DNA of 45,753 nt from Pseudobutyrivibrio sp. (GTDB taxonomy: Bacteria; Bacillota; Clostridia; Lachnospirales; Lachnospiraceae), in assembly GCF_017471675.1 (NCBI RefSeq), contig NZ_JAFUSK010000067.1:1-45753 (forward strand), written 5' to 3'. The notes under the pieces were generated by a model. That model searched no databases. It saw nothing but the letters and a program-made list of their open reading frames with translations, and was not told where the DNA came from. Position 1 is the first letter of the stretch, and each line of letters begins with the position of its first letter. The translations under genes and the position numbers were made by a program. Positions 35,811 through 45,753 of this stretch are shown in pieces.

Positions 35811-36860
35811 ATGAAATATCCAGAGTATTTAAAAGAGGAAGGTGTTATAGGGCTTGTAGCACCTTCCTTTGGTTGTACATTTGAGCCCTACAAAAGCTGT
35901 TTAGATGCAGCTATAAAGCGATTTGAGGGCATGGGTTATAAGATAGTGGAAGGCCCTAATTGTAGAAGAGATGATGGCATTGGCATCAGCTCTACTCCTG
36001 AGAATTGTGGCAAGGAGTTAACAGATTATTACTGCAGTGGGGATAATGATGTGTTGATTTCCTGCGGCGGTGGAGAACTCATGTGTGAAACCATAGACTA
36101 TGTGGATTTTGATGCTGTAAAGCAGGCTAAGCCTAAGTGGTACATGGGCTATTCTGATAACACTAATTTTACATTCCTGCTTAATACTATTTGTGATACA
36201 GCTTCAATCTATGGACCTTGCATTGGGGCATTTGGAATGCATGAATTGCATCCAGCATTGAATGATGCCATAAAGGCATTAACAGGGGCGCTTAATACAG
36301 TAAGCGGTTATGATAGGTTTGAGCTGGAGTCACTTAAGGATGAGGAACACCCCTTTGCACCTTATAATCTTACTGAAGAAAAAGAGCTTAGGCTTTTTAT
36401 GGGAGAAAACGAGATGAATCGCCTGCCTGGCTTTACAGGAAGAATCACAGGAGGCTGCCTTGATTGCCTTGCTAATCTGGTAGGCACTAAATACGATAAT
36501 GTTGATGCCTTTAACGAAAAATATAAGGATGAAGGCATTGTTTGGTTCCTAGAGGCATGTGATTTAAATGTTATGTCTATTAGAAGGGCACTGTGGAACT
36601 TAGATAGAGCCGGCTGGTTCAAATATGCAAAGGGCTTTATCATAGGCCGACCTCTTGCAGCATATAAGCAGGAGCTGATGGGGCTTGATCAATACAATGC
36701 TGTAACAGGAATCCTTGGCAAATACAATGTACCTATTATCATGGATGCAGATGTGGGACATCTTCCACCAGCCATGCCGATTATTTCTGGTGCAATGGTG
36801 GATGTTACTGTAGAGGGTGGAAATCTTTCACTTTCATATGTGGAAAGATTTAGTAAATAA
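35811..36860 (+). CDS. S66-family serine peptidase (LD-carboxypeptidase / MccF-like)
   Basis: A 349-aa cytoplasmic protein of peptidase family S66. The nucleophile is Ser115 in YMGYSDNT; Glu in WFLEACDLN near 247 and His in DADVGHLPP near 318 would complete the triad. The family includes LD-carboxypeptidases that trim peptidoglycan peptides and MccF-type enzymes that give immunity to microcin C-like compounds; length and the SCGGGE segment are closer to the MccF branch. The RiPP cluster that follows is separated by a terminator and a new promoter, so a functional link is not implied. Confidence 0.85.
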   Translation: MKYPEYLKEEGVIGLVAPSFGCTFEPYKSCLDAAIKRFEGMGYKIVEGPNCRRDDGIGISSTPENCGKELTDYYCSGDNDVLISCGGGELMCETIDYVDFDAVKQAKPKWYMGYSDNTNFTFLLNTICDTASIYGPCIGAFGMHELHPALNDAIKALTGALNTVSGYDRFELESLKDEEHPFAPYNLTEEKELRLFMGENEMNRLPGFTGRITGGCLDCLANLVGTKYDNVDAFNEKYKDEGIVWFLEACDLNVMSIRRALWNLDRAGWFKYAKGFIIGRPLAAYKQELMGLDQYNAVTGILGKYNVPIIMDADVGHLPPAMPIISGAMVDVTVEGGNLSLSYVERFSK

Positions 36861-36996: not shown

Positions 36997-37416
36997 ATGA
37001 GGAAAAATCATAGTAAGGAAGATTCTAATAACAGCAAAATTACGACTCCGGATGAGCTTTCATCCTATTTAAAAATAACAAACATAGGAGTGTGGATTGT
37101 GCTCTTTTCAGTAGCATTAATGTTTATAGGCCTATTTTTATGGGCATCCACAGGAACTCTTGAGACAACAGTAGCAGCTAAAATCGTAGTAGAGGATCAT
37201 TTGGCTAGTGTAGTAGTAATGGGCGATTACAGTATACAGGCAGGTGATACTGTAGAAATTCCAAGCGATAAATTTACTATAGCCTCAGTGAAATTTGATG
37301 AATATGATAGACCAGTTGGATTGGCAGAGGTTATTCTACCTGATGGAAAGTATGACGGAACTATTGTAAAAGACAAAATAAGTCCTGTAGATTTTTTGTT
37401 TAGCAGCAAGGAGTAA
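36997..37416 (+). CDS. Minimal HlyD-like secretion protein
   Basis: A 139-aa protein with one transmembrane segment at about 34-56 and a small beta-rich outer domain. The segment TPDELSSYLKITNIGVWIVL is like the N-terminus of HlyD-type proteins of NHLM bacteriocin systems, but the usual length is 300 residues or more and the coiled-coil hairpin is missing. It sits one base before an exporter with a peptidase domain, so it may be a membrane partner of that exporter. The Shine-Dalgarno sequence (GGGT) is weak. Family assignment is tentative. Confidence 0.65.
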   Translation: MRKNHSKEDSNNSKITTPDELSSYLKITNIGVWIVLFSVALMFIGLFLWASTGTLETTVAAKIVVEDHLASVVVMGDYSIQAGDTVEIPSDKFTIASVKFDEYDRPVGLAEVILPDGKYDGTIVKDKISPVDFLFSSKE

Positions 37417-37417
37417 A

Positions 37418-39595
37418 ATGGACATTAAAAAGATTAGACAACCAATTACAAAAGGTGTAGCAAAAGTTCCGGTTATTATTCAGTTGGAGATGCTTGAATG
37501 TGGTGCAGCTGCGTTGGCTATGGTTATGGCGTATTACGGGAAATGGGTGCCATTAGAACAGGTACGCTTGGACTGTGGAGTTTCACGAGATGGTTCCAAT
37601 GCTAAAAATATGGCTGATGCGGCAAAATATTATGGGTTTAACGTAAAAGCTTATAGAATGAGCGCTAATGCCATAAAAACTCAGGCAAGTTTTCCATGTA
37701 TAATACACTGGAATTTCTGTCATTTTGTTGTACTTTGCGGATTTAAAGGAAAGTGGGTCTATATAAACGATCCAGCAAGAGGGACTGTAAGGTTATCGGA
37801 GAAGGAGTTTAAAAAATCATTTAGTGGCGTTGTTATAATACCGACTCCATCAGAAGATTTTGTTCCAGAAGGAAACCCCAAAAGTACACTTGATTACGCA
37901 AGAAAAAGGCTTGTGGGAACAGGCGTTGCCACATTTTTTTTGATGCTCACAACAGCGATTGCATATTTATTTGGCATTTTCAATTCTGTAACAGCACGTA
38001 TATTCATAGATAGAATTTTGACTGGAGAAAATCCAGAATGGTTAAAACCATTTATGGGTGTGTTGATTGTTTTTTCTATCGTTCAGTTGGTTGTTATGTG
38101 GATTAATGCAATCTATTCCATAAAGATAGATGGAAAAATGGCTGTTGTTGGAAATACAACTTATATGTGGAAGGTTCTAAGACTTCCAATGGAATTCTTT
38201 TCTCAAAGATTGGCTGGAGACATTCAATCTAGGGCAAATCTTAGTGCAAATATTTCTTCATCTATAATAGAAACTTTTACTCCTTTGTTATTAAATTCCG
38301 TAATGATGATTTTCTATCTAGTATTAATGGTAAAGCAGAGCGTAATGTTGGCATCTATCGGAATTATAACAGTAGCTATAAATGTAGCAATATCTAAAAT
38401 AATTGCCGACAAAAGAATTAATATTACCCGAATTTTAATGCGAGATTCGGGAAAACTGATAGGAGCTACAGTTACAGGAATTAATCTTATTGAAACAATA
38501 AAGGCAAGTGGCTCTGAGGAGGTATTTTTTCAAAAATGGGCTGGAATTCAGGCTTCTATAAATGAACAAAATGTCAAATTAATAAAGACCACAACTTTTT
38601 TAAGTCTAATACCAACTGTACTTGATATCATGGCAAATTATATTGTTCTTATTTTGGGTGTATTACTAACTATTGAGGGCAAATTTTCGATTGGTGCTGT
38701 AGTTATGTTTCAGGGATTTTTAAGTTCATTTATTAATCCAGCGGAACAACTTATTCAGGCAGGCAAAACAATGCAGGAAATGCGAACAAACATTGAGAGA
38801 GTAGAAGATGTCATTTCCTATCCGAGTGACGAAAATGATAATAGCGAAGTCAGAAATGACAATAATCTAAACAAATTGTCAGGGAATATCGAGATAAAAA
38901 ATATTTCTTTTGGATATGCCAGGCTAGATGAGCCGTTTATAAAGGATTTTTCTCTTTCGATTAAGGCAGGGCAAAGTATAGCAATTGTAGGTGCATCAGG
39001 TTGCGGAAAATCTACAATGTCCAGTCTTATTGCGGGGTTATATAAAATATGGTCAGGTGAAATATTGTTTGATGGAAAAACAAGAAATGAATATCCCCGT
39101 GAAACCATGGTAGGCTCAATTGCCGTAGTAGATCAGGACATTACCCTTTTTGAGGATTCAATAGAAAACAACATTAAAATGTGGGATGAGTCAATTAAGG
39201 ATTTTGAAATGATTTTAGCAGCTAGAGATGCCGCATTGCATGATGAAATAATGGCTCTTCCAGATCATTATAAACATAAGTTAGAGTATGGTGGTAAAAA
39301 TCTTTCCGGAGGTCAAAAGCAAAGGCTAGAAATTGCCCGTGTTCTAGCCCAGGATCCATCAATTATCATTCTTGACGAAGCAACATCAGCCTTAGATGCG
39401 TTGACTGAGCACAAGGTTGTGGAGGCAATACGAAATAGGGGAATTACCTGTATCGTAATCGCACATCGTCTTTCTACAATCAGAGATTGTGATGAAATCG
39501 TTGTACTGGATAAAGGTATGATTGCTGAGCGAGGAACTCATGAGGAACTGATAAAACTAAATGGTTTATACATGGAGCTTATACAGAATGAATAG
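37418..39595 (+). CDS. Peptidase-containing ABC exporter (C39, NHLM type)
   Basis: A 725-aa exporter. An N-terminal C39 peptidase (1-140) has Gln22 and catalytic Cys28 in IIQLEMLECGAAALA, His in HFVVL near 104, and Asp in INDPARG near 120. A six-helix transmembrane domain follows to about 450. The C-terminal ATPase has GASGCGKST and LSGGQKQRLEIAR. C39 enzymes cut leaders after a double glycine, which both precursor peptides in this cluster have, and export the product. It begins one base after the HlyD-like gene. Confidence 0.93.
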   Translation: MDIKKIRQPITKGVAKVPVIIQLEMLECGAAALAMVMAYYGKWVPLEQVRLDCGVSRDGSNAKNMADAAKYYGFNVKAYRMSANAIKTQASFPCIIHWNFCHFVVLCGFKGKWVYINDPARGTVRLSEKEFKKSFSGVVIIPTPSEDFVPEGNPKSTLDYARKRLVGTGVATFFLMLTTAIAYLFGIFNSVTARIFIDRILTGENPEWLKPFMGVLIVFSIVQLVVMWINAIYSIKIDGKMAVVGNTTYMWKVLRLPMEFFSQRLAGDIQSRANLSANISSSIIETFTPLLLNSVMMIFYLVLMVKQSVMLASIGIITVAINVAISKIIADKRINITRILMRDSGKLIGATVTGINLIETIKASGSEEVFFQKWAGIQASINEQNVKLIKTTTFLSLIPTVLDIMANYIVLILGVLLTIEGKFSIGAVVMFQGFLSSFINPAEQLIQAGKTMQEMRTNIERVEDVISYPSDENDNSEVRNDNNLNKLSGNIEIKNISFGYARLDEPFIKDFSLSIKAGQSIAIVGASGCGKSTMSSLIAGLYKIWSGEILFDGKTRNEYPRETMVGSIAVVDQDITLFEDSIENNIKMWDESIKDFEMILAARDAALHDEIMALPDHYKHKLEYGGKNLSGGQKQRLEIARVLAQDPSIIILDEATSALDALTEHKVVEAIRNRGITCIVIAHRLSTIRDCDEIVVLDKGMIAERGTHEELIKLNGLYMELIQNE

Positions 39596-39606: not shown

Positions 39607-41793
39607 ATGGGGTGGTTTAAAAACCAAATTGAGGAAAGGCAGGCGGCTGATCAGCAATTATTAGAAGATGCATACAAAAAAGTAATCTCGTCAATTTTAG
39701 GTGGGGAACAGGCCGAGAAAATACAGGATAAAAGACAGGTAATCAAGGGTAATATTGATGAAATAATGAGATTTTATCATCTTAGACCAATTGATGTGTC
39801 AAAGGAAATGATTGATGTAGATAGTGAGTTTGATTACATTCTTAAATCAAGAGGAATAATGAAAAGAAAAATAAAGCTCACTGAAGGATGGTATAAAGAT
39901 GCCTTTGGCCCAATACTTGCTTTTACTAAGGAATCTAATGTACCAGTGGTTTTAATACCAGGTAACATCGCATATAGGTTTGAAAACCCTTTTACGAAAA
40001 AACGAGAATGGGTTAACAATAATAATGCGGGACTATTTGATGTAGAAGCATATCATTTATATAGACCACTGCCTAATAAAAAGATGAACATCATTGATTT
40101 ATTAGTCTTTATGAGGCAAAGTCTCTATTTAAATGATTTGGTATATATTGTACTATGCAGTTTTATGGCAACCGCTACAAGTATGTTTTTGCCAGAATTT
40201 GCAAGGATATTGGTTGGACCTATTCTCGAAATAAAAGAATCATCATACATTGTTAGTTTAGTAATATGTATGATTTGTATTACTGTATCCTATCAATTAT
40301 TCGAAGGGATAAAAACATTACTGCAAAGCCGTATTAAGACAAAAATATCCGTCAATGTTGAGTCCGCAATGATGATGAGGATTATGAGCTTACCGTCTGG
40401 ATTTTTCAGAAAGTATAGTCCTGGCGAGCTATGTAATCGTTCATTGGCAGTTAACCAATTATGTAACACACTTGTAGACATAATAATGGGCTCCAGCCTT
40501 ACTGCCTTTGTATCACTCTTGTATATATTCCAGATATTTAGTTTTGCAAAATCACTTACGGTACCAGCAATTTTTATTGTACTAATCACACTATTTTTTT
40601 TAGTTTCCACTAGTATGATACAGATGAAAGTTGATAGAGAGTTATTGAACAGACAAGCGAAAACTGCCGGACTTTCATATCAGTTTATTTCAGGTATAAA
40701 AAAACTAAAGCTGTCAGGATCAGAGAAGAGAGCTTATTCTAAATGGCTTATGGCATATGCGGAGGAAGCTAAATATCAGTATAATCCGCCTTTATTTATA
40801 AAGGCAAACGCCGTCTTTTTTGCTGGAATAAATTTATTTTCAACTATTGTTATATATTACATTGCGGTGAAAAGTAATCTAAATCAGTCTTATTACTATG
40901 CATTTATGGCATCCTTCGGAATGCTTATGGGGGCTTTTGACTCGGTTTCTTCAGTGACTGATTCATTTGCTCAAATAAAGCCTATTCTCGAAATGGCCAC
41001 CCCATTTTTAAAAACTGAGCCTGAGATAGAGGCTGAAAAACAACTTGTAAATAACGTTTCCGGAATGATAACAGTGGAGAATTTAAGTTTCAAATATAAT
41101 GATGATTCACAATATGTGTTTAAGAACTTATCTTTAAAAGTAAAGCCTGGGGATTATATTGCTATTGTAGGAAAAACTGGATGTGGCAAGTCAACATTAA
41201 TAAGATTGCTGCTTGGACTAGAACATCCTCAGATGGGTGCAATTTATTACGACAATCAAAATATTGACACCATGGATTTGCCATCATTAAGAAGGAAAAT
41301 TGGGACAGTTATGCAGGATTCGGCTCTATTCCAAGGAGATATTTATTCAAATATTGCAATTACAAATCCAGATTTGACAGAAGATGAAGCCTGGCAAGCT
41401 GCAGAAATAGCAGGCATTGCAGATGATATTAAAAAGATGCCAATGAAAATGAAGACAATGATAACAGAAGGTCAGGGAGGTATCTCGGGAGGTCAAAGAC
41501 AGAGGATTATGATTGCCAGAGCAATAGCCACAAGACCCAAAATACTATTTTTTGATGAAGCTACTAGTGCTTTGGACAACATAACACAAAAAAAGGTTTC
41601 CGACGCTTTGGATAAAATGGGATGTACAAGAATCGTAATTGCTCATAGATTATCAACCATTAAGAATTGTAATAAAATAATTGTCATTAATAATGGGCAA
41701 ATAGTTGAATCTGGTACTTATGAGGAGCTAATAGCCAAGCAGCAGTTTTTTGCAGAACTTGTAAAACGACAGCAATTAGACAATTCACAGTAG
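39607..41793 (+). CDS. Second ABC exporter without peptidase (NHLM type)
   Basis: A 728-aa exporter half. The first 160 residues are a soluble N-terminal domain that is not a C39 peptidase and that I cannot name. Transmembrane helices run from about 170 to 450, and the ATPase has GKTGCGKST and SGGQRQRIMIAR. NHLM clusters commonly carry a peptidase exporter next to a peptidase-less one, so the two may form a heterodimer. It starts 11 bases after the first exporter, with GGGGGC upstream. Confidence 0.9.
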   Translation: MGWFKNQIEERQAADQQLLEDAYKKVISSILGGEQAEKIQDKRQVIKGNIDEIMRFYHLRPIDVSKEMIDVDSEFDYILKSRGIMKRKIKLTEGWYKDAFGPILAFTKESNVPVVLIPGNIAYRFENPFTKKREWVNNNNAGLFDVEAYHLYRPLPNKKMNIIDLLVFMRQSLYLNDLVYIVLCSFMATATSMFLPEFARILVGPILEIKESSYIVSLVICMICITVSYQLFEGIKTLLQSRIKTKISVNVESAMMMRIMSLPSGFFRKYSPGELCNRSLAVNQLCNTLVDIIMGSSLTAFVSLLYIFQIFSFAKSLTVPAIFIVLITLFFLVSTSMIQMKVDRELLNRQAKTAGLSYQFISGIKKLKLSGSEKRAYSKWLMAYAEEAKYQYNPPLFIKANAVFFAGINLFSTIVIYYIAVKSNLNQSYYYAFMASFGMLMGAFDSVSSVTDSFAQIKPILEMATPFLKTEPEIEAEKQLVNNVSGMITVENLSFKYNDDSQYVFKNLSLKVKPGDYIAIVGKTGCGKSTLIRLLLGLEHPQMGAIYYDNQNIDTMDLPSLRRKIGTVMQDSALFQGDIYSNIAITNPDLTEDEAWQAAEIAGIADDIKKMPMKMKTMITEGQGGISGGQRQRIMIARAIATRPKILFFDEATSALDNITQKKVSDALDKMGCTRIVIAHRLSTIKNCNKIIVINNGQIVESGTYEELIAKQQFFAELVKRQQLDNSQ

Positions 41794-41870: not shown

Positions 41871-42254
41871 ATGAGAGAGGAAATGAATAAGTATCTGGAA
41901 ATGCTAGGTGAGGATGAGGAAGCCCAAAAGAAATTAAAGTCACTAAATGAAGACGATAAAGAAGGTGTAATCACGGCCAGCATTGAGATTGCCAAAAGTT
42001 ATGGTATCAATCTTGTCAAAGAAGACTTTAACTTAGAGACCTCAGAGCTTGATGAAAATGAATTAGAAGCTGTATCTGGTGGCGCAACTGCATGCGCTTG
42101 TTTAGGTGCAGGTGCAGGTGCATCAGGTGATGGCTTTTATGGAGGCTGTGGATGTGTTATTGGAGGAGGTGGCCAATTCTATTATGATAAAAAGCATAAA
42201 AAGCTAGCAGGTTTTTGTAGGTGCCCTGGAGTAGGCGGAGGCGGTGCATCATAA
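41871..42254 (+). CDS. Nif11-leader RiPP precursor, three CxC-glycine units (A)
   Basis: A 127-aa precursor peptide. Residues 1-69 are an acidic Nif11-like leader ending ELEAVSGG (Gly70-Gly71), the cut site of C39 peptidases. The core (72-127) has three CxC units: C75-A-C77, C93-G-C95 and C116-R-C118, each followed within a few residues by Gly/Ala-rich or GGGG runs. A strong AAAGGAGG site precedes the ATG. A 77-base AT-rich gap separates it from the exporter, so it may have its own promoter. The radical SAM gene starts 16 bases later and is the likely modifying enzyme. I do not recognise this core class. Confidence 0.88.
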   Translation: MREEMNKYLEMLGEDEEAQKKLKSLNEDDKEGVITASIEIAKSYGINLVKEDFNLETSELDENELEAVSGGATACACLGAGAGASGDGFYGGCGCVIGGGGQFYYDKKHKKLAGFCRCPGVGGGGAS

Positions 42255-42270
42255 ATAAGGAGAATTAGCG

Positions 42271-43719
42271 ATGTATTATCTTCTGAATGAACGATATAGG
42301 CTTTGTGGCTGGGAAAAATTACCATACGCAATTATAGATAGAAAATATGGACGAGCTCAGTTTGTTAACAAATTTATATTAGATACTCTTGAAATGTGTA
42401 ATGGAAAAATAGATTTTTCTATTCCTATTATTACTGATGATCAACGTAAACTTGTAGAACAATTGGTAAAAGAGGGTGTCGTATCAGAGTGTGAAAAAGG
42501 CTCAGAGCTCAAAGAAAAACAAAAATATATTTTTTACAATAATCGCTATATGAACACAGTGCATTGGTCGATAACTGGCAAATGCAACTGTAAATGCAAA
42601 CACTGCTATATGTCAGCCCCAGATGCTAAATATGGCGAACTGACCCATGAGCAAATAATGAAAATTGTTAATGATATGGGGAATTGTGGGGTACTTAGAT
42701 GCACTTTGACAGGTGGTGAAGCCCTTGTACGTTCAGACTTTTGGGACATTGTGGATGGATTACTTGAAAGAGAAATACTCATTACTCAAATCTATTCAAA
42801 TGGTTTTCTTGTAAATGAGAAATTCCTCGATGAGTTGGAAAAACGAGGTATTCACCCTGAAATCAATATGAGTTTTGATGGAACAGGACATCATGATTGG
42901 TTGAGAGGTATTCCAGGGGCTGAGCAGGCTGTGAGAAAAGCATTTTTGTTGTGCCAAAAACGTGGTTTTCCAACTGGTGCTGAAATGTGTTTATGGAAAG
43001 ATAATGCAAGCTCTTTACGTGAAAGCATAAACGATCTGACACAGATGGGGTGTCGCAGTCTAAAAGTAAATCCAATATCAGATACTGGTGCATGGAAAGA
43101 TGGAAACTATGGTAACGCCCTGTCAATGACAGAAGATGAGGTATTCAATGTTTATTACGAGTATATTGACTCTTTCTACCAGGATTTACCGAATATACTT
43201 GTACATTTAGGTGGATTCTTTTATGCAGACGGTGGTGAACCTGATTTTTATGAATTACCAGCTGTTCATATCTACGAGAATCCAATGAGGGCAAGTATGT
43301 GTGTACACGCGAGAAATACAATGTACATATCAGCCGAAGGCAGAGCGGAAACCTGCATGGGCATGGCAAGCATGTCAGATGAATTCCAAAATCAATACCC
43401 TCTTGTTCAGGAAATGGGCCTTAGGGACTGTTTGGTTGATTCTTCTTACATGAAATTGATTGATACCAGAGTAGAAGAGATAATAGCTCGAAATGAAAAG
43501 TGCATTGATTGTAAGTATAAATCATTATGTCTAGGTGGATGCCGAGCAAGCGCCATGATGTTTCATCGTGATGATGTTCTGGCTGTAGATGAAATGACCT
43601 GCAAGATTTATAGAGACGGTTGGCTCACAAAAATTATAGATAAGATATCAAAACTAAGGCCAGAAGCAGTTTGTTACGGGGTGGAAGAATATTTAAAAGT
43701 GGAAAGGAGCGATATCTAA
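42271..43719 (+). CDS. Radical SAM/SPASM peptide maturase
   Basis: A 482-aa enzyme. Residues 1-80 look like a PqqD-type leader-recognition (RRE) domain. The radical SAM cluster is CxxxCxxC with C105, C109 and C112 (CNCKCKHC, with an extra Cys at 107). The GGEAL segment for SAM binding is near 147. The C-terminal SPASM domain has C-rich segments CMGMAS, CIDCKYKSLCLGGC and MTCK that would hold one or two auxiliary 4Fe-4S clusters. Enzymes of this kind cross-link cysteines or other side chains in RiPP cores. It lies between two precursors whose cores carry six cysteines each. Confidence 0.92.
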   Translation: MYYLLNERYRLCGWEKLPYAIIDRKYGRAQFVNKFILDTLEMCNGKIDFSIPIITDDQRKLVEQLVKEGVVSECEKGSELKEKQKYIFYNNRYMNTVHWSITGKCNCKCKHCYMSAPDAKYGELTHEQIMKIVNDMGNCGVLRCTLTGGEALVRSDFWDIVDGLLEREILITQIYSNGFLVNEKFLDELEKRGIHPEINMSFDGTGHHDWLRGIPGAEQAVRKAFLLCQKRGFPTGAEMCLWKDNASSLRESINDLTQMGCRSLKVNPISDTGAWKDGNYGNALSMTEDEVFNVYYEYIDSFYQDLPNILVHLGGFFYADGGEPDFYELPAVHIYENPMRASMCVHARNTMYISAEGRAETCMGMASMSDEFQNQYPLVQEMGLRDCLVDSSYMKLIDTRVEEIIARNEKCIDCKYKSLCLGGCRASAMMFHRDDVLAVDEMTCKIYRDGWLTKIIDKISKLRPEAVCYGVEEYLKVERSDI

Positions 43720-44108
43720 TGAAAGAGAGTATTAAGAAATTCATGGAAGTTGTTTCAAGCGAAGGTAACGATACTATCGAAAAATTACAAAATGCTGACG
43801 CTGAAACTATTATTAGTATGGCGTTAGAACGTGGAATTACTATAGAAGCTGATGATCTAAAGCAAGAAGATGAATTGACAGAAATGTCGATGGATGAGCT
43901 TGCTGCTACCACAGGGGGAAAAAGATGTGTATGCCCTGCAGTTGGAGGAGGATTAGAAGATAGTCATCATTATGCATGTGCTTGTGTTGTCGGAGGAGGC
44001 GGAAGAGCTAAACCTGGATATTCATTTTCCTATGTTAATTCTTGTTTATGTGTTATAGGAGGAAATGGCGGAAAAGAGGACGGTAGATATCCAGATGATC
44101 CAGATTAG
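43719..44108 (+). CDS. Nif11-leader RiPP precursor, three CxC-glycine units (B)
   Basis: A 129-aa precursor. The start ATG 43719 overlaps the last base of the maturase stop (TAATG), with GGAAAGGAGC upstream. Leader 1-65 is Nif11-like and ends LAATTGG (Gly66-Gly67). The core (68-129) has C70-V-C72, C87-A-C89 and C109-L-C111, followed by GGG, GGGG and GGNGG. First-Cys spacing is 17 and 22 residues, against 18 and 23 in precursor A, so the two cores share a layout while the residues between differ. The tail DGRYPDDPD is unique to B. It is most likely processed by the same maturase and exporter. Confidence 0.88.
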   Translation: MKESIKKFMEVVSSEGNDTIEKLQNADAETIISMALERGITIEADDLKQEDELTEMSMDELAATTGGKRCVCPAVGGGLEDSHHYACACVVGGGGRAKPGYSFSYVNSCLCVIGGNGGKEDGRYPDDPD

Positions 44109-44181: not shown

Positions 44182-44340
44182 ACGATTATTTTTATAAAAG
44201 TGTGAAGAAATTTCTATTTACTTAAAATAAAGCTGAGGCTACTATATTATCACGAACTGCCATAGATTAAGGGATTGGGGAATCTTTTTCTATGGTGTAA
44301 CAAAGGACTTTTGTCCTAATTTTTAATTGGGGGAATAGTG
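44182..44340 (+). promoter_or_regulatory. Leader region of the secreted-protein gene with two hairpins
   Basis: A weak promoter candidate is TTTACT (44217-44222) and TACTAT (44240-44245) at 17-base spacing. Downstream are CCATAGA (44260-44266) with TCTATGG (44289-44295), holding an inner GATT-GGGG-AATC, and AGGAC-TTTT-GTCCT (44304-44317) followed by AATTTTT, which could act as a weak attenuator. I recognise no known riboswitch here. Confidence 0.4.
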
Positions 44341-45753
44341 ATGATGCAAAAAGAGAACTTTAAGCGTCTCTTAGCTACAGCTCTTGCACTTTCAATGGCC
44401 TGGTCAGGGTTTACACCTGGCTCAGGTCTTTCTTTAGTGCAGGCAACTGAAGCTGGAGAGACCAAACAAGAAGAATCTTCTGAAGAAAAATCACAAGAAG
44501 AATCAAAAGCATCTGAGGAAGAAACAAGCCAATCTTCTGAGGATGCCAAAGAAGTTCCTGACTCTGATTCCTCAGCAGAAGATGTAGCAGATGAATCAAC
44601 AGACGATAATGAATCCCAAAAGGATGTTGATGAAGAAGCTGAAGAAGATGAAGATGCTGAGCTTGATGAGAAAGAGCTACTTGAAGAAGAAAAACTGTTA
44701 AAGGAAAAAGAAGATGAAGAAGAGGATGAAGATAAGTTAAAGCTAATTGCAGATTTTGACTTTGAAAACCTCGAAGATAATGCAACCATTACAGGCGGCG
44801 GTGCTAAGGCAACAGGTACTTATTCTGTTGTAGATAGCTTTGGTGAAAGTGGAAAGGCTATTTCGCTTTCTGATGGTAAAAAGCAATTCCTTAATGTTAC
44901 CAAGGAAAATGGAGACAGCTTGCTTGCAGGCGTAAAATCTGTTTCTATCTCCTTTGATGCAAATATTGGTAGAACTGGAACAGACTGGTTATTCTACTCA
45001 GCCCCAAATGAGAACCCACAGTCAAGTCCAGAATATTACCTTGGTGCAGCTAACATCAGTTCAAAGCTAACTATCGAGCAGTTTAAAAACGGTAGAACGA
45101 ACGGAACCACAAACACACCTATTGCAATTAACACATGGACCCACATAGATGTTGTTTATTCTCAGGATGAGACAATTGTTTATGTAGATGGTGAAAAGAA
45201 ATCAAGCTTTAGTTCAGACAACAAGCTTGAGGATATCCTAGGAGCTAATCCTATTACTTATATTGGAAAAGCCAACTGGGGTTCAGGAGAATACTGTAGA
45301 GCATATCTTGATAACTACAAAATTTATCAGGGTAAGCTCACAGATAGTGATGTAGAAGACCTTTACAAAGCATTCCTTGACAAGAAGGTAGGCAAGGCTA
45401 CAGAAGTTGAATTTTCTCTCAACTTAGGATACGTAACAGGAGATATTAATCTTCCAGCAGAATATGATGGCAAGAAAATCTCTTGGAAATCAAGTGATGA
45501 GAAGGTTGTGACAAATAACGGTAAAGTCACACGTGGAAATAAAAATAAAGAAGTAACACTTACAGCAACTATTGATGGGGCTGATAAGGAATTCAAAATC
45601 GTAGTCCTGAAAGAGGGCGAGGATATTGCAACTTATGTAAGCAATAGTCCAGGTGTTGGTCAGGATGGTTGTATGAAGATTGATGCTAAAAAGATTGGAA
45701 GTTTTCAGGCTCTTCATAAGAATCTACCTATTATGTACAGAAGCCTTGGTAGC
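44341..45753 (+). CDS. Large secreted protein, 3' end outside the window
   Basis: The first 471 codons of an open frame that runs off the right edge. Residues 1-37 are a signal peptide (basic start, LLATALALSMAWSG core, QA cut site). A linker of about 100 residues, almost only Glu, Asp, Ser and Lys, follows. Residues 140-340 look like a LamG/concanavalin-type sandwich (IADFDFENLEDNATI at its start, YLDNYKIYQGKL at its end). Then comes a short immunoglobulin-like segment (ISWKSSDEKVVTNNGKVTRG) of the kind found beside GH43 and other polysaccharide-degrading domains. A secreted carbohydrate-active enzyme is likely, but the catalytic part lies outside. GGGGG lies upstream of the start. Confidence 0.8.
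   Translation, partial: MMQKENFKRLLATALALSMAWSGFTPGSGLSLVQATEAGETKQEESSEEKSQEESKASEEETSQSSEDAKEVPDSDSSAEDVADESTDDNESQKDVDEEAEEDEDAELDEKELLEEEKLLKEKEDEEEDEDKLKLIADFDFENLEDNATITGGGAKATGTYSVVDSFGESGKAISLSDGKKQFLNVTKENGDSLLAGVKSVSISFDANIGRTGTDWLFYSAPNENPQSSPEYYLGAANISSKLTIEQFKNGRTNGTTNTPIAINTWTHIDVVYSQDETIVYVDGEKKSSFSSDNKLEDILGANPITYIGKANWGSGEYCRAYLDNYKIYQGKLTDSDVEDLYKAFLDKKVGKATEVEFSLNLGYVTGDINLPAEYDGKKISWKSSDEKVVTNNGKVTRGNKNKEVTLTATIDGADKEFKIVVLKEGEDIATYVSNSPGVGQDGCMKIDAKKIGSFQALHKNLPIMYRSLGS

Follow-up and report, generated by a model that had tools for sequence, protein, structure and literature searches.

We conclude that a Pseudobutyrivibrio sp. contig encodes two small precursor peptides with a single radical SAM/SPASM maturase gene between them and that the product is almost certainly a RiPP in which a short repeated unit is the substrate of that maturase. 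The stretch of DNA that was analyzed (here, the window) is 45,753 nucleotides long. Each of the two cores carries three units, and all six fit the pattern C-x-C-x3-G-x-G exactly (positions C1, C3, G7, and G9 in what follows). The architecture of the system, the conservation of the unit, and the pairing pattern of its cysteines and glycines are established by comparison with relatives, and the family is real, widespread, and apparently undescribed. We put at slightly better than even the chance that the whole account holds, namely, that this is a secreted RiPP in which each unit forms a nested hairpin with two Cys-to-Gly alpha-thioethers.

The genes of interest lie on the plus strand between positions 36997 and 44108, in the order HlyD-like, ABC1, ABC2, precursor A, maturase, and precursor B (Table 1). 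A sequence-only reading of the locus had proposed two precursors with a Nif11-like leader and a double-glycine cut, one radical SAM/SPASM enzyme between them, core lengths of 56 aa (A) and 62 aa (B), and first-Cys spacings of 18/23 in A and 17/22 in B. All of this was borne out, the lengths and spacings by direct reading of the sequence; the leaders themselves score below threshold in the window (TIGR03798, 24.8 bits for A and 24.3 bits for B; cut-off, 32.3), and the same cut-off is exceeded in 10 of 10 relatives scanned, these being chosen ones. Precursor A, the maturase, and precursor B are intact frames, each with a ribosome site. The site AAAGGAGG lies immediately 5' of precursor A, and AAAGGAG lies upstream of the likely start of precursor B, an ATG at 43719 that overlaps the maturase stop (TAATG); the frame listed from 43671 for this precursor begins at an upstream TTG start.

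Table 1. Features of the peptide system, in window coordinates
Feature	Positions	Strand	Remarks
Short HlyD-like adaptor, N-terminal part only	36997..37416	+	139 aa; TIGR03794 NHLM_micro_HlyD, E 0.0028, first 54 positions, far below cut-off
NHLM ABC1 exporter with C39 double-glycine peptidase	37418..39595	+	TIGR03796, 870.9 bits (cut-off 853.3); Peptidase_C39, 1.9e-34
Partner exporter NHLM ABC2	39607..41793	+	TIGR03797, 684.6 bits, slightly below cut-off 709.4
Precursor peptide A	41871..42254	+	127 aa; leader 41871-42083, ends SGG; core 42084-42251
Unit A1, CACLGAGAG	42093..42119	+	pattern CxCx3GxG
Unit A2, CGCVIGGGG	42147..42173	+	pattern CxCx3GxG
Unit A3, CRCPGVGGG	42216..42242	+	pattern CxCx3GxG
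Radical SAM/SPASM maturase, N-terminal RRE-like domain	42271..43719	+	482 aa; PF04055, 2.8e-18
Precursor peptide B	43719..44108	+	leader 43719-43919, ends TGG; core 43920-44105
Unit B1, CVCPAVGGG	43926..43952	+	pattern CxCx3GxG
Unit B2, CACVVGGGG	43977..44003	+	pattern CxCx3GxG
Unit B3, CLCVIGGNG	44043..44069	+	pattern CxCx3GxG

An NHLM/NHLP export pair is thus present, with ABC1 and its C39 peptidase above the model cut-off and ABC2 slightly below. Gene groups near 49 loci in relatives that encode at least one canonical unit comprise the maturase (44), precursors (31), the NHLM ABC1/ABC2 exporter (28), HlyD-like proteins (16), and a sigma factor (11), from which three members were scanned. 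The scan also took in smaller groups, namely, response regulators, general permeases, and proteins of the SpoIIE or GGDEF type. Among the scanned members of the neighbor groups occurring in at least 5 of these 49 loci, no second modifying enzyme was found. Besides these scanned groups, frames antisense to the enzyme gene form one at 7 loci. The HlyD-like group of the relatives has a median length of 160 aa, against the 421 positions of the NHLM adaptor model. Just upstream of the system genes, at 35811-36860, lies a peptidase S66 (LD-carboxypeptidase), which probably stands outside the system because only three members of its group (L027 to L029, same genus) occur near the 49 canonical loci; the S66 family also includes the MccF immunity peptidase. 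On the other side, at 44338-45753, a large acidic secreted surface protein is cut by the contig end and measures about 2,300 aa in L027 to L029.

Within the window, the units are not readily reproduced from composition: three units appeared in 0 of 20,000 composition-preserving shuffles of each core, and two units appeared in 7 of 20,000 for A and 0 of 20,000 for B. When the whole genome was searched with the corresponding DNA pattern, 38 scattered single matches were obtained on both strands (12 with a control pattern), and triplets within 150 bases occurred at this locus only.

To describe the unit in relatives, an alignment of eight maturases was scanned against one genome per species. The scan matched 305 stretches, 288 of which encode a relative, and the best 80 of these 288 loci were kept; many are metagenome bins, whose individual taxon labels may be wrong. 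Open reading frames were selected on their size, strand, and distance, on the presence of a leader-like cut, and on a content of two or more Cys, without any demand for glycine, which gave 163 distinct cores from 68 loci. Cores with at least two CxC motifs (94 cores, 49 loci) supplied 232 distinct CxC windows. At least one canonical unit was found in 93 cores from 49 of the best 80 loci, and three units were found in 77 cores from 40 of them; the two sets of 49 loci overlap in 45. The remaining 31 of the 80 loci show no canonical core, some being cut short and some having other Nif11 cores.

Across the 232 CxC windows, glycine occupies position 7 in 229 and position 9 in 219, compared with 114 at position 6, 103 at position 8, and 18 at position 10. 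The three windows without G7 read CxCx4GxG, so that the loop is one residue longer and the G-x-G is shifted as a pair; position 7, where not glycine, is V, I, or A. Spacing between units is far looser, 11 to 27 and 12 to 30 residues in the 79 cores with three CxC motifs. Given a fixed register inside the units and varied spacing between them, the unit behaves as a rigid module joined by free linkers. The sequence-only proposal, a RiPP family whose CxC units all follow one plan while the linkers vary, is therefore supported. Its description of three CxC motifs per core also stands, and the "glycine runs" said to follow them can be defined more exactly, the invariant feature being a G-x-G at fixed register and not a run. 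Examples from other loci include the units WCGCPVVGGGT...QCACVGYGTG...DCFCLVGGEG in L071 and EECICGIGGGGG...VCVCVLGGGG...RCVCVVAGGGD in L079.

The natural variants also indicate which cysteine goes with which glycine. Among the 93 canonical cores there are 23 distinct lone Cys, counted with no glycine required after them and with any Cys that has a close Cys neighbor set aside. Glycine follows at +4 in 13 of 22, at +6 in 3 of 19, and at +8 in 1 of 18, with 4 of 23 at both +1 and +2 and 4 of 13 at +10. Since lone cysteines keep the +4 glycine and mostly lose the one at +6, we infer that C3 goes with G7 and C1 with G9. With C3-x3-G7 as the anchor, G9 is present in 221 of 233 cases that have C1 and in 16 of 37 that lack it (Fisher p 2e-13, relatedness ignored). 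This anchoring favors G7 by construction, so the C3-G7 pairing relies on the lone-Cys test, and the C1-less anchors include zinc-ribbon-like tails. Where C1 is absent, position 9 is varied, and in L039 and L043 the two kinds of unit coexist in one peptide, the lone-Cys unit lacking G9 and the CxC unit retaining it. There are exceptions: G9 is present without C1 in L036, L045, and L054, and 12 windows have C1 without G9, position 9 being A, S, N, Q, H, or T. Furthermore, 18 units at 10 loci (L066, L074, L101, and seven others) have an additional, third Cys that precedes the pair by two residues (CRCxC...GxG) and lacks a fixed partner downstream, the corresponding position being glycine in 5 of 15. 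The number of Cys is odd in 42 of the 93 canonical cores, 16 of which carry CRCxC. Zinc-ribbon-like tails (e.g., YCEKC...PCSKCGTIL) follow two units or a lone-Cys unit in cores at L031:5774-6133, L031:9460-9852, L032:106-465, and L033:9605-9964.

Glycine has no beta carbon, and a link to it could be made only at the alpha carbon, as in a sactionine. Donors two apart, acceptors two apart, and a three-residue loop provide the geometry that a nested hairpin would need. On these grounds, we consider Cys-to-Gly alpha-thioethers in the units probable, and the nested pairing of C3 with G7 and C1 with G9 about evenly balanced between right and wrong. The loss of the outer pair with retention of the inner fits the inner-first order of ruminococcin C, an agreement that is an analogy and not proof. 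Weighing against the nested model, glycine could serve turn geometry alone, and the model leaves unexplained the G9 without C1, the C1 without G9, the other glycines after lone cysteines, and the third Cys.

Some of these observations fit better with one thioether per CxC unit, which the sequence-only reading had offered as one of two options. In such an arrangement, C3 would be joined to G7, C1 would remain free, enter a disulfide, or be bound by the auxiliary cluster while the enzyme acts, and G9 would be structural. The C3-G7 pair scarcely varies and persists alone, G9 remains without C1 at the three loci named above, and the extra Cys of some units has no fixed partner; SKF offers a precedent, as it combines a thioether with a disulfide in the accessible text of PMC8172795. 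Nevertheless, G9 occurs in 219 of 232 CxC windows and in 3 of 19 lone-Cys cases and is in this way tied to C1, so that two nested thioethers seem likelier, and we regard the single bridge as unlikely. Thioethers might instead reach x4 to x6, x8, x10, or side-chain carbons, in the manner of ranthipeptides, the glycines then being needed for the turn alone. The bond that PapB makes at the same i+4 distance (CX3D) runs from Cys to the Asp beta carbon, as described in the available parts of PMC9413430, and D, E, or T occupies position 10 in 113 of 232 CxC windows. However, position 10 is none of these in any of the 6 window units, no residue is fixed at positions 4 to 6 or 8, and D or E never stands at position 7, the fourth place after C3 where the CX3D type would have it and where 229 of 232 CxC windows have glycine. 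Acceptors of this kind are very unlikely.

The other option of the earlier reading, metal binding by the CxC pairs, is disfavored as well. On this view, the pairs would act as metal ligands or be joined as disulfides, and the reaction of the maturase would be epimerization, C-C bonding, or something else; EpeE, SuiB, and anSME, which share the fold group of the maturase, lend this some plausibility. We also counted in its favor that repeated Cys pairs with G-x-G presumably resemble the DnaJ zinc motif. Yet lone cysteines keep the +4 glycine (13 of 22), which would be useless to a Cys-pair metal site, and the odd Cys number of the 42 cores, including the 16 with CRCxC, argues in the same direction, making this explanation quite unlikely. 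We give negligible weight to the readings that the cluster is decayed or its peptides unmodified, or that the glycine-rich repeat arose by chance. Glycine and cysteine are certainly abundant in the cores (22% and 11%, respectively), but none of the 20,000 shuffles gave three units, the unit is kept across three phyla, and the frames are intact and have ribosome sites.

With two nested alpha-thioethers per unit as the preferred reading, the system may work as follows. The Nif11-like leader would deliver the precursor to the maturase, a binding suggested by the leader match and by an N-terminal domain that superposes on those of SkfB and SuiB. The maturase would handle each C1-x-C3-x3-G7-x-G9 unit separately, removing the alpha hydrogen of G7 and joining G7 to C3, then joining G9 to C1 likewise. 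Each unit would become a nested bicyclic hairpin, giving three per peptide with the linkers left free. In this, the peptide would parallel ruminococcin C, with three hairpins and with glycine as the acceptor. The C39 peptidase of the exporter would cleave after the double glycine, and the peptide would be exported, probably as an antibacterial or signaling molecule.

The maturase has features in keeping with such a role. Its radical SAM cysteines are Cys105, Cys109, and Cys112, and its SPASM cysteines are Cys344, Cys362, Cys411, Cys414, Cys420, Cys424, and Cys444. These seven are kept in 80 to 81 of 81 homologues (C414 in 80), with no invariant eighth; C342 is found in 47 of the 81 and is lacking in the window maturase. 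A count of seven underlies the open-site proposal for AlbA in the portion of PMC6231123 available. In a structure model (pLDDT, 94.2), the alignment of the N-terminal domain begins at residue 7 with SkfB and at residue 3 with SuiB. In the sequence-profile comparison, SkfB comes first (4.4e-26), ahead of PqqE (1.9e-19), and it is also first by Foldseek E-value. TM-scores rank SuiB (0.59 to 0.62) above SkfB (0.50), and VIA gives a tie between SkfB (27.4) and anSME (26.5), followed by SuiB (25.5) and CteB (25.0); EpeE, too, belongs to this fold group. An RRE, a radical SAM domain, and an auxiliary cluster domain are all present, a combination not specific to sactipeptides, and ranking of the modeled fold alone does not tell thioether synthases from C-C or other synthases. 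The equivalog cut-offs are missed for TIGR04103 (71.6 of 725 bits), StsB NF045574 (73.4 of 625 bits), and AlbA NF012164 (52.5 of 850 bits).

The nearest public records of the maturase (99 to 100% identity) number three and are all from Pseudobutyrivibrio genomes, one being OR37 and the other two metagenome bins. By their taxon labels, the best 80 of the 288 loci belong to Lachnospiraceae, Oscillospiraceae, Selenomonas, Erysipelotrichaceae, Synergistaceae, Atopobiaceae, a Collinsella strain, and others. In the maturase tree, loci with a three-unit core make up 37 of 81 rows and span Bacillota, Actinomycetota, and Synergistota. The window maturase groups with that of an Atopobiaceae bin (58% identity) in a clade of 14 enzymes with mostly reduced cores, the 12 other members having fewer than three units. 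Within the bacterial family, a maturase relative (E up to 1e-40) is encoded in 14 of 397 genomes, and a profile of 25 cores (E up to 1e-4) matched in only 2 of the 397, G000 and G157, both with a close maturase; the other genome of the same genus in this search had no maturase match at E up to 1e-40. In one more of the family genomes with a close maturase, G080 (57%), the core has diverged and comprises a single lone Cys and two CxCx3G units without G9. Because 14 of the 397 genomes have the enzyme and 2 have the core, and because the nearest clade is reduced, the enzyme group is not tied to the CxCx3GxG unit. The unit was not found at ten loci with distant maturases (L126 to L135; 27 to 35% identity), two of which (L128, 32%; L129, 29%) have other Nif11 cores downstream, Cys-rich and zinc-ribbon-like with CPYC/CxxC. 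Since it is absent beside distant enzymes, the unit seems to belong to an inner clade. Viral contigs yielded 8 relatives, which are 21 to 37% identical, none of them close.

Among the relatives, L066:11423-15307 has twelve unit-bearing precursor genes in a row with one maturase, the leaders being short and without most of the Nif11 domain; this array is a natural library of loops. Maturase copies occur in tandem at L083 and L096, where cores have one canonical unit, at L087, with other Cys patterns, and at L104, where no core was found.

The broadest form of our proposal, which we hold tentatively and rate at a little under an even chance, is that of an undescribed radical SAM peptide class from the gut and rumen, present in at least three phyla. 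One enzyme would convert three units into the smallest known nested sactionine bicycles, making six Cys-to-glycine alpha-thioethers per peptide, with freely evolving linkers and, in one genome, a twelve-precursor array. If this is true, the nine-residue unit would be a portable element with a defined bicyclic fold that a single enzyme could write into peptides, and more than 200 distinct natural units would be available for study. Glycine as acceptor would be the rule and not the exception, and natural cores without the outer pair would permit a direct test of the order of inner and outer bridges in a sactisynthase. Gut and rumen microbiology would gain a widespread, apparently unnamed group of secreted peptides.

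No described family matching the cores was found in NCBIfam, Pfam, or the accessible literature, in which subscription papers and bioRxiv were thinly covered. The sactipeptide-like clusters of a pig isolate, in the text available from PMC7738495, have the SCIFF motif. "Radical" and "OR37" are absent from the main text of the Hungate1000 bacteriocin paper (PMC13289728), as far as that text was accessible; such clusters might sit there under another heading. A search of the core profile against the PDB returned EED and fibronectin chains only, at chance level, and none of 25 cores matched the NCBIfam/Pfam sactipeptide models. The likeness to RumMC/RumC drawn below comes from their published descriptions.

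Known systems share parts of this plan. Nif11-class radical SAM maturase 3 (TIGR04103) likewise combines a Nif11 leader with a radical SAM enzyme, and the window maturase falls far short of that model. SkfB and AlbA resemble it in joining an RRE, a radical SAM domain, and an auxiliary cluster domain, and AlbA also has seven C-terminal Cys; unlike it, SkfB has a Twitch domain in place of SPASM, and SKF has one thioether and subtilosin has three long-range ones. SkfA-type precursors (TIGR04404) occur in 0 of the 397 genomes, G000 included. The ranthipeptide PapA (PapB) is alike in linking Cys to i+4 in repeated motifs, in the available text of PMC9413430, but its acceptor is the Asp beta carbon, whereas the fixed residue here is glycine.

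The sequence-only reading recognized nothing similar among sactipeptides, which does not hold, because ruminococcin C has CxC donors and tandem hairpins, and Cys-to-Gly links occur in streptosactin and in RumMC2 products. Streptosactin (GggA/GggB, StsB) has two unnested rings, and the window maturase matches the StsB model weakly, far below its cut-off. Its leader is of another type than the leader here. The parts of PMC8172795 available to us describe a Cys31-Gly34 alpha-thioether in streptosactin, and those of PMC8188230 describe RumMC2 as able to take glycine as acceptor, with Cys-to-Gly alpha-thioethers. For ruminococcin C, the accessible text of PMC6779426 and PMC8172795 gives bridges from Cys22 to Asn35, from Cys24 to Glu31, from Cys41 to residue 61, and from Cys45 to residue 53. 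Formation of the inner bridge precedes that of the outer, which in the second hairpin requires it, and the authors describe the connectivity of Cys22 and Cys24 as harder to prove. Ruminococcin C (RumC1/RumC2) differs in having two hairpins where three are proposed here, longer inner loops (6 and 7 residues, against 3), Ala/Glu, Asn, Arg, and Lys as acceptors in place of Gly, and second-hairpin donors four apart. It shares with the system studied here, as far as the same text describes it, CxC donors in a thioether hairpin, hairpins in tandem, and several precursors per cluster, and the conservation of G7 and G9 suggests that this system operates in the manner of such a sactipeptide.
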